From the NCBI RefSeq assembly GCF_022808955.1, contig NZ_JAKZEY010000005.1, positions 1-47,894 on the forward strand: a DNA stretch of 47,894 bases, read 5' to 3'. Origin of the DNA: Anaerococcus sp. AGMB09787 (GTDB lineage Bacteria > Bacillota > Clostridia > Tissierellales > Peptoniphilaceae). Numbering within the stretch: position 1 is the stretch's first letter; every line of letters starts with the position of its first letter. This document shows positions 34,216-38,528 of the stretch, one piece after another. The notes under the pieces were generated by a model. That model was not told where the DNA came from. It saw nothing but the letters and a program-made list of their open reading frames with translations, and searched no databases. The position numbers were made by a program, and so were the translations under genes.

Positions 34216-34830
34216 ATGATTAAAATATACGAGCAATTCCCTGAGATTTTATCAATCAAGTCCAGGGTTATTTCTAAAAATTATGACAAGAATAAAACTT
34301 ATTTGAATCTTGATAGGACTATTTTTATGCCTAATAATGATGTTCTTACTAATGACAAGGGCTTTATTGATGGGAAGAAGGTTCTAGGTATTGAGGAGAA
34401 GAATGGCAAGGTCCTTCATACTGTCGAAGGAAAGATTTCTAGGCGTGAGGTGGTTTTGAGCCTTGATAGGGAAGTTAGGTACAAGAACTTAAAACTTGCA
34501 AGTGGCTTTAGTCTATTTAGGATTTTCTTTGATACCTACAACCTCCCCCACAAGATGGATTTTGCCATAGAGGATGGTAAGGGGGCGATTTTTATAGAGG
34601 ATTTTAGACAGGGCCTTGATAGGGACCTTATCGAAGGGCAGATTAATTATGCCATTGATGCTGGTTTAAAGATTGAAAAGTCAAATGGTATAGTGGAGCT
34701 TCCTGGTATTGGTAAGACTATTAATAATTTAATTTGCTTTGATAGGACTTACAAGTTAAAGTTTTTTAAGATTCTTGATACCGAGAGGACAGATTCAAAT
34801 ATGAAGGTTATTTTTGACTGCGATAAGTAA
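34216..34830 (+). CDS. AlaX-like (alanyl-tRNA editing domain) protein lacking zinc ligands
   Basis: A 204-aa protein that aligns by eye with the alanyl-tRNA editing/AlaX domain: YLNLDRTIF (for YVVLDKTxF), DKGFIDGKKVLGIEEKNGKVLHTVEG, RYKNLKLASGF (for RFxxMQQHSGEH) and IVELPGIGKTINN (for IVEIxGxDxxPCGG). All four zinc positions are changed: HxxxH becomes A95-S99 and CxxxH becomes N170-C174. The GGGQP loop is replaced by NDVLT (41-45). Editing by the normal zinc mechanism is therefore not expected. The reading frame is intact and has RBS AAAGAGG, so it is probably expressed. It might bind tRNA or nucleotides, or be a relic; family assignment is inference from motif order and spacing. Confidence 0.6.
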   Translation: MIKIYEQFPEILSIKSRVISKNYDKNKTYLNLDRTIFMPNNDVLTNDKGFIDGKKVLGIEEKNGKVLHTVEGKISRREVVLSLDREVRYKNLKLASGFSLFRIFFDTYNLPHKMDFAIEDGKGAIFIEDFRQGLDRDLIEGQINYAIDAGLKIEKSNGIVELPGIGKTINNLICFDRTYKLKFFKILDTERTDSNMKVIFDCDK

Positions 34831-34849
34831 TTCTTATTTGAAGATTTAC

Positions 34850-34878
34850 TTGCCTAAATTTTTTTATAATGCTATAAT
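34850..34878 (+). promoter_or_regulatory. predicted promoter of the leader ORF and ABC exporter
   Basis: TTGCCT, 17-nt spacer, TATAAT (34873-34878). Start predicted near 34885, about 26 nt before the leader ATG. It begins 20 nt after the AlaX-like gene; no terminator separates them. Confidence 0.75.
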
Positions 34879-34910
34879 TAAATAAATTATTAAATGAAAG
34901 GAGAATAAAA

Positions 34911-34958
34911 ATGACAAAATTAAGATTAAATGAATTAGGAATAGATTGTAACAAGTAG
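34911..34958 (+). CDS. 15-residue leader peptide MTKLRLNELGIDCNK
   Basis: Tiny ORF with an excellent ribosome binding site (AAAGGAGA, GGAG 7 nt before ATG) directly behind a strong promoter, so translation is very likely. The stop codon abuts the 5' arm of an RNA hairpin at 34959. The downstream structure can alternatively hide the Shine-Dalgarno of the first ABC gene, which suggests a regulatory leader peptide. The peptide is hydrophilic with one Cys (residue 13), no signal sequence and no double-glycine motif; three of its four... Leu codons seen are TTA (positions 4, 6, 9). An alternative is that the peptide itself is the exporter's cargo or a modified signal. I recognise no homologue. Confidence 0.6.
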   Translation: MTKLRLNELGIDCNK

Positions 34959-35007
34959 AAGTAAGTCTTAGGATTACTCCTATAAACTTACTTATTTATA
35001 AGGAGTA
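34959..35007 (+). promoter_or_regulatory. two alternative RNA helices controlling the ABC exporter SD
   Basis: Helix A: AAGTAAGT (34959-34966) pairs with ACTTACTT (34986-34993), extended by TAGGA (34969-34973) with TCCTA (34978-34982) and a TTAC loop. Helix B: TACTCCTATAAA (34975-34986) pairs with TTTATAAGGAGTA (34995-35007), 12 bp with one bulged A and an 8-nt loop. Helix B includes AAGGAG (35000-35005), the only SD of the ABC gene starting at 35017. The helices share 34978-34986 and cannot coexist. Neither is followed by a U-tract, so control of translation rather than transcription termination is suggested. Confidence 0.65.
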
Positions 35008-35016
35008 TACAAGTAT

Positions 35017-36771
35017 ATGAAAGAAATTAAATTTTTATTGAAACAAATGGCAAAGTTTGAGCCATTCATGTTTGTTCTAATTGCACTTTATTCCATATTT
35101 ATCGGTATTAGACCCTTTATATGGATTATTTCACCTGCCTATATTTTAAAGAATACGGATAAGCCCTTTTCTTTTTTTCTGATATTTTTTATAGTAGTCT
35201 TACTTATAAGTTCACTTATAGGTTTTTTTGAGTCTTTTATTATGAATAACTACCGTATGAGAATGAACTCTATTAGGTATAGGTTCATTAGGATGGTTAC
35301 GGATTATTCCTTGCATCTCGATTTTGATAAGCAAAAAGATAAGGATTATATAGAAAAAATTAATAATGCCAATAAGGCTTGTAGGGATCCCTTTAATGGA
35401 GCTGGTGGTATTATGATGCAGCTTCCCCCACTTATGTCTGTAATAGTATCAATCGCAGGCTTTGCTTGGATATTTTTTGCTATGGGATTAAAGATATTCT
35501 TGATAGTTATGGCTATTAGTTTGATAACCTTATGGATCAATTACAAGACTACTATATTATTTCGAGACTTTTGGGACAGTCAGAGTAATAACTGGAATAT
35601 TTTTGAAAAGCTCAATTATCAGCTAAGAAATCCTGAATCAAAGCAAGACATCCTTATTTTTAACTTTATCTCCCTCTTTAGATCCTACTATATGGGAAGA
35701 AATAAGGAAAGAATAGATGGATTAGCAGAAGTTAATAATAAGGAATTGAAATTAAAAAGCCTAGGAAAATTAATTTCCATACTAAGGGATGGGCTAATGA
35801 TTTTTTGGCTTCTCTCTTCAATTATAAGGGGAGCTATTGATATAGGTGATTTTTATATGTTCTTTACTGCTATCTTTAGCTTTATCACCTTTGAGGAAAG
35901 TATTTTTTGGACCTTTGCAAACTTCAGAAATTCGGCAGTTTCCTTTAGATATTTCTTGAAACTATTTGAAGATGAAGATTTACTTGAAGAGAAGAGCCTC
36001 CCTCTTCCAGCTAAGATGGATGATTTTAAGATAGAATTTAAAAATGTGTCCTTTGGATACCCAAACACCGACGCCCTTGTACTAAAGGATATCAACCTAA
36101 TTATTCATAAGGGAGAATCCATTGCCCTAGTTGGTGAAAATGGAGCTGGCAAGTCAACCCTAGCCCTCCTCCTCTGTGGTCTCTATGAGCCTACATCTGG
36201 TCAAATCCTCTTAAATGGCATAGATATAAGAACCTATGGGAAGAATTACCTAGACCTAATCGGGGCAATCTTCCAGGACTCCCTCCTTATGCCCTTTACT
36301 ATCCAAGAAAATATTACCTTTAAGTCAAGAGAAACTGATTTGACTGATATTTATAGGAAGACTAGGCTAGATGAAATAGTCGAGAGTTATGAGGATAAGG
36401 ACAAGCAAGTCTTGCTTAGGACCTTGGATGAGAATGGTGTTGACCTTTCCGGTGGTCAAAAGCAAAGGATATTTTTATCGAGGGCCTTGTACAAGGATAA
36501 GTCTAAACTTTTGATTTTGGATGAGCCAACAGCCCAATTGGATGCCCTTGCAGAAAAAGACCTCTATATGCTCTATGATAAGTTAACCAAGGACAAGGCT
36601 TCAATATTCATATCCCATAGGCTAGCATCGACCAAGTTTTGTGATAGGGTTATCTTCCTTAAAAATGGAAAAATAACTGGCAATAATACCCACGAAAGAT
36701 TAATCGAAGAAAATGAAGAGTACAGGGACCTCTATAACTTGCAAGCAAAGAATTATAAGGAGGTATTATGA
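35017..36771 (+). CDS. ABC exporter half-transporter, subunit 1 (canonical NBD)
   Basis: Type IV (exporter-fold) half-transporter, 584 aa. Membrane domain about 1-310 with roughly six helices, then a nucleotide-binding domain: Walker A GENGAGKST (373-381), Q-loop Q420, signature LSGGQ (477-481), Walker B ending in D502-E503, D-loop QLD and switch His534. All catalytic residues are present. No C39 peptidase domain is fused, so it would not process double-glycine leaders. The SD is 11 nt from the ATG and can be sequestered in the leader RNA. It overlaps the next ABC gene by 4 nt (ATGA), so the two probably form a heterodimer. Substrate unknown: drug, lipid or peptide. Confidence 0.85.
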   Translation: MKEIKFLLKQMAKFEPFMFVLIALYSIFIGIRPFIWIISPAYILKNTDKPFSFFLIFFIVVLLISSLIGFFESFIMNNYRMRMNSIRYRFIRMVTDYSLHLDFDKQKDKDYIEKINNANKACRDPFNGAGGIMMQLPPLMSVIVSIAGFAWIFFAMGLKIFLIVMAISLITLWINYKTTILFRDFWDSQSNNWNIFEKLNYQLRNPESKQDILIFNFISLFRSYYMGRNKERIDGLAEVNNKELKLKSLGKLISILRDGLMIFWLLSSIIRGAIDIGDFYMFFTAIFSFITFEESIFWTFANFRNSAVSFRYFLKLFEDEDLLEEKSLPLPAKMDDFKIEFKNVSFGYPNTDALVLKDINLIIHKGESIALVGENGAGKSTLALLLCGLYEPTSGQILLNGIDIRTYGKNYLDLIGAIFQDSLLMPFTIQENITFKSRETDLTDIYRKTRLDEIVESYEDKDKQVLLRTLDENGVDLSGGQKQRIFLSRALYKDKSKLLILDEPTAQLDALAEKDLYMLYDKLTKDKASIFISHRLASTKFCDRVIFLKNGKITGNNTHERLIEENEEYRDLYNLQAKNYKEVL

Positions 36772-38528
36772 GAAATATCTATAGATTATTTAGAAGAATA
36801 GACCAAGACTACAAACATTTTACCTTGAAAGTTTGCTTGACTTCGATAGTTCTGGGATTTTTACCTATAATCAATATCCTTGCACCCAAGCTAATTATAG
36901 ATGAGCTTAGTGGAGTTATTTCTTTAGAAAAACTTGGATTGATAGTAGCAGTAATTTTACTAACTAATCTTATAAATTCATTACTAAAAACCTACTATAA
37001 TAACTACTTTGACCTGGTTTTTGAATCAATGACTGATAAAATGCTCTTTGACCTAAGCGAGAAGTCCCTAAGACTTCCCATAGAAGAAAGTGATAGTAAA
37101 GTGGTTCAAGATAAGCTAGAAGCTGCCCATGATGCTGTATTTACCTTGTTTGGCCTAGAAGAAGCTATGAATTTTGCTGTAACATCCATAATTACGGGGA
37201 TTTTTGCCATTGGAGTATTAATTAGATTATCAATTTTTATTCCCTTAATAGGTCTAGTAGTAATTATTGCCAACAAGAAATTCGTAAATCTTATCAAGGA
37301 AAATGAAATTAACTACCAAAAGCACAACATTCCTGACTTGAGGGTGTATAGGTATTTTACGAACTTCTCCCAAGATTTTAAATACTCAAAAGATCTAAAG
37401 ATCTATCGAGGCGAAGATCTAATCTTGGAAAAATCTAAGCATTATATGGATCAAATGATCGAGACGTCTAAATGCTATTTTAATAAGAACGGTATCTACC
37501 AGGGTATAATGAATATAACTTCCAATGCTACCATAGTGGCACAGTTGATATATTTGACCTATAAGCTAATTAAGAAGACGATAAGTCTTGCTGACTTCAC
37601 CCTTTATTTTAACTCAATTATCCAATTGATAAACACTATAAATCTATGTCAGAAAAACTATGCCCAAGTCATATCAGCCAATGAAAAATTAAATTCTTAT
37701 TTCGAGTTTATAAATCTAAAAGAGCAATATGACCCAGGCAAGGATTATGTGAATATTGATGATGATAAGATAAGTATAGAGTTTAGAAATGTAATTTTTA
37801 AATACCCAAAGAGCGATAAGAATACCCTAAAAAACTGCTCTTTCAAGATTGATAACGGAGAGTCTGTTGCCCTAGTAGGAAAAAATGGTGCAGGTAAGTC
37901 TACCATAGTCAAGCTCCTCTGCAAGTTCTATGAACCAAGCGAGGGGGCTATCCTAATAAACGGTGTAGACCTAAGAGATATAAGTAAAGAAGACTATTAC
38001 AAGATCTTATCTCCTACCTTCCAAGACTTTAGACTATTCCCTTTTAGGGTAAATGAAAATATTACAGCTGATAAGGCAGAAAACATTAGCGAGGACAAAA
38101 AAGAAGAAATATATAAATCGTTAAAGCTCTTGGGCATATATGATTGGGTGACTTCCCTCCCTAAAGGCGATAATACCTACCTAACCAACCTCTTCGATGA
38201 AGAAGGCATAGAGCCATCAGGAGGAATAGGTCAAAAGATCGCCCTATCAAGGTCCATGATCCATGGGGGCAAGTTCTTCATAATGGATGAGCCAACCAGC
38301 GCCCTAGATCCAAGAAGTGAGCAGGATATCTTTGAAAAGATGCTAGAAATATCCAAGGGTCAGACTTCCCTCTTCATCTCCCACAGGCTATCATCGACCA
38401 AATACGCTGATAGGATTATAGTCTGCGATGATGGATTTATTAAGGAAAATGGAAGCCACGATGACCTAATGAAGGTAGATGGTCTTTACAAAAAAATGTT
38501 TACTACCCAAGCCGAACTTTACTCATAA
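36768..38528 (+). CDS. ABC exporter half-transporter, subunit 2 (degenerate signature)
   Basis: Partner half-transporter, 586 aa. Membrane domain about 1-320, nucleotide-binding domain with Walker A GKNGAGKST (371-379), Q-loop Q419, Walker B D507-E508 and switch His539. The signature motif is PSGGI (483-487) instead of LSGGQ, so the ATP site formed with the Walker A of subunit 1 should be weakened. Such asymmetry is known in heterodimeric exporters (BmrCD, TM287/288, LmrCD type). There, however, the Walker B Glu is usually also altered in one subunit, and here both are intact. Ends before a strong bidirectional terminator. Confidence 0.85.
   Translation: MRNIYRLFRRIDQDYKHFTLKVCLTSIVLGFLPIINILAPKLIIDELSGVISLEKLGLIVAVILLTNLINSLLKTYYNNYFDLVFESMTDKMLFDLSEKSLRLPIEESDSKVVQDKLEAAHDAVFTLFGLEEAMNFAVTSIITGIFAIGVLIRLSIFIPLIGLVVIIANKKFVNLIKENEINYQKHNIPDLRVYRYFTNFSQDFKYSKDLKIYRGEDLILEKSKHYMDQMIETSKCYFNKNGIYQGIMNITSNATIVAQLIYLTYKLIKKTISLADFTLYFNSIIQLINTINLCQKNYAQVISANEKLNSYFEFINLKEQYDPGKDYVNIDDDKISIEFRNVIFKYPKSDKNTLKNCSFKIDNGESVALVGKNGAGKSTIVKLLCKFYEPSEGAILINGVDLRDISKEDYYKILSPTFQDFRLFPFRVNENITADKAENISEDKKEEIYKSLKLLGIYDWVTSLPKGDNTYLTNLFDEEGIEPSGGIGQKIALSRSMIHGGKFFIMDEPTSALDPRSEQDIFEKMLEISKGQTSLFISHRLSSTKYADRIIVCDDGFIKENGSHDDLMKVDGLYKKMFTTQAELYS

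Follow-up and report, generated by a model that had tools for sequence, protein, structure and literature searches.

What controls the expression of two overlapping ABC transporter genes in Anaerococcus sp. AGMB09787, and does the short open reading frame (ORF) in front of them take part? The genes lie in a stretch of 47,894 nucleotides, hereafter the window, for which a preliminary description had noticed a strong promoter, a 15-codon leader ORF and two competing RNA helices ahead of the first ABC gene. It had proposed that a ribosome finishing the leader hides the Shine-Dalgarno sequence (SD) of that gene and that an early or absent ribosome exposes it. Comparison across relatives indicates that the regulatory element is real and genus-wide; its likeliest role is ribosome-mediated translation attenuation, with a fold that is on by default.

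The first ABC transporter gene (35017..36771, forward strand, 584 aa) was assigned by profile and homology searches and is overlapped by the second (36768..38528, forward strand, 586 aa; profile searches). Both proteins match the ABC ATPase profile. The Pfam transmembrane model is not listed for the first protein and is just missed by the second (27.8 vs 28), and no NCBIfam model reached its cut-off among the 25 matches listed per protein (of 187 and 184). The best named match of the first protein is from an Anaerococcus MAG (94% identical); its AlphaFold2 model, computed with four sequences, had a mean pLDDT of 41.5 and was not used. Heterodimeric ABC exporters usually have one degenerate site; both window proteins differ in keeping the Walker B glutamate, as read from their sequences. 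The pair may be a heterodimeric drug exporter. A full-length relative of the first protein (ABC1; E 3.0e-172 or better) was found in 29 of 31 Anaerococcus genomes, the strain's own included; in G012 the match is truncated, and G023 gave nothing at E <= 1e-40. All 29 genomes with a full-length first gene have a second ABC match immediately after it (partial in G002). ABC1 is nearly confined to the genus: relatives at E <= 1e-80 occur in 30 of 130 genomes of the family, 29 of them Anaerococcus.

All parts of the leader region lie on the forward strand. A promoter-like site (TTGCCT, 17 nt, TATAAT; 34850..34878) was recognised by consensus match alone. This site is present as described earlier, but the strength attributed to it is unsupported, since 34700-35100 holds one promoter-like match against 2.8 expected from shuffles, which is not above chance. 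The leader ORF (34911..34958) encodes 15 codons, MTKLRLNELGIDCNK, and ends with TAG at 34956-34958; it was defined from the sequence and by comparison with relatives. Its own SD, AAAGGAG (34897..34903), was read directly, and SD-like purine runs precede the relatives' leader ORFs as well. Helix A, the putative antisequestor (34959..34993; folding, -12.4 kcal/mol), has 13 pairs, joining 34959-34966 to 34986-34993 and 34969-34973 to 34978-34982, so that its 5' edge at 34959 is the base right after the leader stop. Helix B, the putative SD sequestor (34975..35007; folding, -10.0 kcal/mol), pairs 34975-34986 with 34995-34999 and 35001-35007, leaving A35000 bulged. Its 12 pairs would bury the SD of the first ABC gene, AAGGAG (35000..35005, read directly), and folding makes it mutually exclusive with helix A. 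That exporter SD is invariant or nearly so in an alignment of 23 leader sequences, and it is followed by an 11-nt spacer to the AUG (35006..35016) in which folding gives no hairpin. With the exception of the promoter's strength, the ORF, its SD, both helices and the exporter SD were all recovered at the positions first proposed for them. The leader's own SD (34899-34903) is also complementary to the anti-SD at 34977-34981, a third pairing that could feed back on leader initiation. No terminator-like site occurs in 34700-35100 of the window, where a leader of the bmrB type would carry an intrinsic terminator. No Rfam family reached its gathering score anywhere in the window, and the weak matches in 34840-35060 scored 14.8-15.4 bits.

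The upstream DNA of all 30 Anaerococcus loci was read. A common layout of SD, ORF, helix A, anti-SD, SD and AUG was present in 28 of the 31 genomes, once in each, with the anti-SD mostly CTCCTTG and the SD mostly CAAGGAG. The SD-preceded leader ORF has 12-16 codons in 27 of the 30 loci and 27 codons in L045. More specifically, the element precedes a full-length ABC1 orthologue in 27 genomes and a truncated copy in one (G012), and it ends at the AUG of the orthologous ABC gene (in G012, that of the truncated copy). The ORF, both helices and the placing of the stop beside helix A, first noticed in a single sequence, are thus kept throughout the genus. Of the remaining loci, L026 (G020) has neither anti-SD nor leader and has lost the element. 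L027 (G021), excluded from the 28 counted leaders, carries unrelated sequence of like topology, with a 12-codon frame, a weak SD and a stop at the edge of a long helix. In G012, the leader (L052; G012:C1:770590-771240) is kept before a first ABC gene that matches residues 1-218 only and contains five stops; this gene looks like a decaying copy.

A covariance model built from 23 of the 28 leaders detected (E <= 0.1) a single copy in 28 of the 130 family genomes, all Anaerococcus (28/31), and nothing in 99 family genomes of other genera. Because those 23 leaders went into the model, the genus matches are largely expected by construction, and what is new is the single copy per genome and the absence elsewhere. 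Outside the genus, ABC1 has a single relative at E <= 1e-80 (G059, L053), and inspection by eye showed no such leader upstream of it. An order-wide search of 249 genomes was less sensitive than the family search because 18 rather than 36 candidates were scored per genome, and the window's own copy was missed. It gave 30 genomes with a match at E <= 0.01, namely 27 Anaerococcus and three others (G188, G190 and G204). These three were rejected as the same element, being SD hairpins before a small gene with no comparable helix A; the sole SD-preceded frame listed for them, of 56 codons in L090, was also discarded as it looks like the end of the upstream gene. Of interest in their own right, these loci (L089, L090 and L091, in G204, G188 and G190) belong to other families of the order, and in each a strong SD hairpin precedes a conserved small gene (158-159 residues). 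The pair CTCCTTG...CAAGGAG has a match in 43 of the 130 family genomes, and none of five such stretches read outside the exporter clearly has a leader ORF plus helix A. Among these pairs, those of L086 and L087 (G014:C12 and G019:C55, two Anaerococcus genomes) could mask the SD of an ABC-ATPase-like gene of 243 residues, with no clear helix A seen, and in G041:C12, from a different genus of the family, two near-copies (L084 and L085) separated by about 4.4 kb precede a short ATG-started frame.

Stability of the isolated helix A and helix B hairpins was equalled by 3/200 and 1/200 dinucleotide shuffles, respectively. The entire 146-nt leader is not unusually stable (123/200 shuffles as good), nor are two longer stretches folded beside it (23/200 and 66/200). 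Given that the whole leader does not beat its shuffles, the single sequence is only suggestive, and we take the decisive case against chance to be the comparative one. Helix A gives the more stable fold in all 29 sequences compared (the 30 loci less L026; the B fold compared for L027 differs from the SD pairing). Shuffling its 5' part weakens helix A in all 15 representatives of the 28 leaders (p 0.0005 to 0.019). When the 3' part was swapped, 1 to 10 of 14 foreign parts folded equally well or better (5/14 for the window, 10/14 for L031 and for L032). For helix B, the core is paired in 96.3% of alignment cells, vs 38 to 69% when slid. No helix B pair in the leader alignment changed on both sides, which is expected if SD function constrains the 3' side. 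For 10 of the 15 representatives, 10 or more of 14 swapped SDs matched the native one in pairing, because the SD side hardly varies. The informative lineage for helix B is that of the window: it deviates from the genus consensus in the flanks of both anti-SD and SD with pairing retained, and the native partner beats all 14 swaps. Folding and comparison together thus argue for two mutually exclusive helices, one of which would hide the SD of the regulated gene.

Where would a translating ribosome stand with respect to these helices? In 23 of 28 leaders the stop codon starts at -1 to +8 nt relative to the 5' edge of folded helix A, and all three stop codons are used; in L039, L040, L041 and L044, extra outer pairs surround a helix A core found at the same place. 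A ribosome at the leader stop would be expected to cover the 5' arm of helix A. For the switch model, a 30-nt ribosome footprint was blocked at each codon and the probability of an unpaired exporter SD was computed. In this folding model, SD exposure is 0.02-0.93 without a ribosome or with one on the first seven codons, and falls toward the last codons in 27 of 28 leaders, by 3- to 36,000-fold from the AUG to the last codon (3-fold in L050, 30- to 36,000-fold in the other 26). Over the 27 leaders, the median exposure of the ribosome-free RNA was only 0.19; placing the ribosome on the AUG gave 0.15, and moving it to the last codon gave 0.001. The direction of switching first proposed, with the SD hidden by a ribosome at the end and exposed by an early or absent one, is thereby reproduced by the model in 27 of 28 leaders. 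When footprint size was varied, the fall was at least 10-fold in 26/27 leaders for three sizes and in 23/27 for the smallest (L045 left out). Shuffling the stretch before the anti-SD in 14 representatives reached the native on/off ratio in 37 of 420 shuffles (18 from L031, 8 from L043 and 4/30 for the window), and the median shuffle ratio was below 6 in 12 of the 14, the exceptions being L031 (236) and L043 (126). The leader of L031 contains a purine-rich run, which may be a further pairing partner of the anti-SD. The one leader that behaves differently is L045 (G008), whose 27 codons read through helix A and the anti-SD; its modeled SD exposure is lost mid-leader and returns toward the late stop, an end state opposite to the others, and it is either a natural exception or a sequence error. 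In the unrelated L027 (G021), exposure goes from 0.05 for a ribosome on the AUG to 0.006 for one at the last codon.

Folding of the relatives revealed a further structure, absent from the preliminary description, between the exporter SD and its AUG. This spacer hairpin occurs in 12 of 15 representatives, and its presence follows spacer length: all 12 representatives with 16-23 nt between AGGAG and AUG have it (p 0.0015 to 0.0195), and the three with 4-11 nt (the window, L028 and L029) do not. Its arms vary by clade (GCCG/CGGC, GCGG/CCGC, GTAGG/CCTAC, GAGG/CCTC), and about 6-8 nt of spacer, counted by hand, remain outside the stem. In most relatives the hairpin would place SD and start codon at a spacing that works for initiation. 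A spacing-shortening device is found in the split ribosome-binding sites of phage T4, for which a review gives a structure between SD and AUG that shortens over-long spacing from 27 to 11 nt in gene 25 and from 22 to 5 nt in gene 38 (PMC3014915). The Anaerococcus hairpin is a predicted one, and differs from the T4 cases as described there in that it sits directly behind an attenuator, in a bacterial genus, and is missing in the window's species.

Taken together, these features suggest that the element is probably a ribosome-mediated translation attenuator, responding to whether or not ribosomes get to the end of the leader ORF. Under efficient leader translation, ribosomes on the last codons and the stop would sit on the 5' arm of helix A, as both geometry and folding model suggest. 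With helix A blocked, the anti-SD would be free to pair with the exporter SD in helix B, and translation of the ABC pair would be low. If leader initiation is blocked, if a drug stalls ribosomes early or if starvation slows them, ribosomes would miss the leader end; helix A could then form and remove the anti-SD, leaving the SD more open and the exporter made. Translation inhibitors may on this mechanism induce the exporter.

Whether the signal is ribosome position or a particular nascent peptide can be weighed from the leaders themselves. In an attenuator of the arrest-peptide kind, a specific antibiotic (for instance a macrolide at a K/R-x-K/R motif) would stall the ribosome at a set early codon, so that helix A forms and the exporter is turned on. 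In the folding model, stalls at codons 4-7 give many leaders the same SD exposure as the ribosome-free state. Such a reading fits the finding that ATGACAAAATTAAGA (MTKLR, which contains K-L-R), in identical codons, begins leaders in three separate parts of the ABC1 tree. K/R-x-K/R is known as a macrolide motif (PMC12121999), and [KR]x[KR] is present in 13 of 22 distinct peptides vs 9.1 in shuffles (p 0.021, relatedness ignored; L045 left out). It also fits the leaders identical in DNA within clade V (three species) and clade W (two), and those of clade Y, which change less than the exporter (0.08 vs 0.11 nonsynonymous and 0.06 vs 0.53 synonymous). Against it, the peptides of different clades share little, 9 of the 22 lack [KR]x[KR], so that a conserved arrest motif of the erm type is not found, and nonsynonymous change per site in the leader exceeds that in the exporter 3 to 5 times in clades X (0.07 vs 0.023) and Z (0.24 vs 0.047). 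For these comparisons exporter substitution rates were taken without alignment, and clade W rates were dropped because L023 and L024 differ in length. Conservation of the 15 residues, another check proposed at the outset, accordingly fails between clades, though some clades keep their peptide. Given this divergence between clades, the element more likely senses where the ribosome stands than depends on one arrest peptide. A single conserved arrest peptide is not supported by these sequences, stalling motifs may act in some lineages, and we regard a drug-specific arrest mechanism for the element as a whole as unlikely.

Two other explanations dispense with a general reading of ribosome position. 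The leader ORF could be incidental to a plain SD-sequestering hairpin or to a switch driven by temperature, a protein or a small ligand; plain SD hairpins do occur elsewhere in the order, and the weak Rfam match of lowest E (0.62) is a ROSE-type thermoregulator, at 15.3 bits vs a cut-off of 43. A plain hairpin, however, would need neither ORF nor helix A, and in 27 of the 30 loci a 12-16-codon ORF with an SD of its own ends next to helix A despite the divergence of the peptide, which leaves this explanation quite improbable. Early Asn-rich codons, found in several clades whose leaders start MNNNI, MNINLN, MNNTSNN or MNININN, could instead stall ribosomes when charged Asn-tRNA falls, letting helix A form. 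But AT-rich unstructured starts favour AAT and AAC codons anyway, the MTKLR and MTIIK leaders have no Asn in their first five codons and an exporter is an odd target for amino-acid starvation; we give this sensor very little credence, the least of the readings considered.

We return to the attenuator that reads the end of the leader. In most species its signal would be ribosome position and not the peptide, as the divergence between clades suggests. In its strongest form, the element would be a peptide-independent, default-on sensor of ribosome flux, in which any failure to reach the leader end, even no leader translation at all, opens the exporter SD through the antisequestor, and which is coupled to a split ribosome-binding site and kept genus-wide while the peptide changes. 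This form we put forward tentatively, as a serious candidate somewhat short of an even chance, and we hold it, like the attenuator reading as a whole, at a slightly lower probability because clades V and Y keep their leaders.

How does this compare with known attenuators? Leaders of erm and cat genes use exclusive helices that hide or expose the SD of the resistance gene depending on the ribosome on the leader; the stalled ribosome itself rearranges a repressive fold, and the ribosome-free state is off. In Anaerococcus, by contrast, a ribosome at the leader end would give the off state and the ribosome-free state is predicted to be on. In ermC, efficient leader translation goes with a hidden ribosome-binding site (PMC4191407; the ermC logic also in PMC12121999). 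The nearest precedent is bmrB-bmrCD of Bacillus subtilis, also a leader ORF ahead of a two-gene ABC exporter, for which the authors propose that efficient leader translation prevents an antiterminator and slow translation allows it (PMC4191407). There, an intrinsic terminator lies inside bmrB and blocking leader translation lowered expression (PMC4191407). The output in Anaerococcus would instead be SD sequestration, with no terminator-like site in 34700-35100, and the exporter is predicted to be on without leader translation, where that of bmrCD is lowered (PMC4191407). What would be new here is bmrB-bmrCD logic acting on an SD instead of a terminator. By analogy with bmrCD, we would guess that the inducers are ribosome-targeting drugs exported by the pair. 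The Escherichia coli toiL-topAI upstream ORF responds to several classes of ribosome-targeting drugs through access to the downstream ribosome-binding site (PMC12121999). In that case the predicted partner of the topAI ribosome-binding site is toiL itself, so that a stall within toiL opens the site directly, and the target is a toxin-antitoxin pair (PMC12121999), whereas Anaerococcus would use a separate antisequestor for an exporter pair. The vmlR leader of B. subtilis likewise combines an upstream ORF with exclusive helices, including an SD-sequestering hairpin; a stall in its ORF prevents an anti-antiterminator, so that the antiterminator forms and both terminator and SD hairpin are avoided, and its target is an ABCF factor and not an exporter as in Anaerococcus (PMC9226507). 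In Streptococcus pneumoniae, patAB also has an attenuator before a two-gene ABC drug exporter, with a predicted terminator, antiterminator and anti-antiterminator; the portion of that report considered here names no leader ORF (PMC4319486), which Anaerococcus has. Among the matches listed from the open-licence literature, a scope that leaves subscription papers mostly outside, no description of the element was found.

If the proposed reading is true, the Anaerococcus element is a default-on translation attenuator whose ribosome-free state is opposite to that of the erm leaders. It would show the trp/bmr logic, in which a ribosome at the leader end means off, acting on translation initiation; such logic would need no terminator, no run of codons for a single amino acid and no arrest peptide. 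The 28 genomes that carry the element provide natural variants for asking whether the peptide matters or the signal lies in ribosome position alone. Since Anaerococcus lives as a commensal and opportunist of humans, an exporter that may respond to translation inhibitors is of practical interest in this genus.
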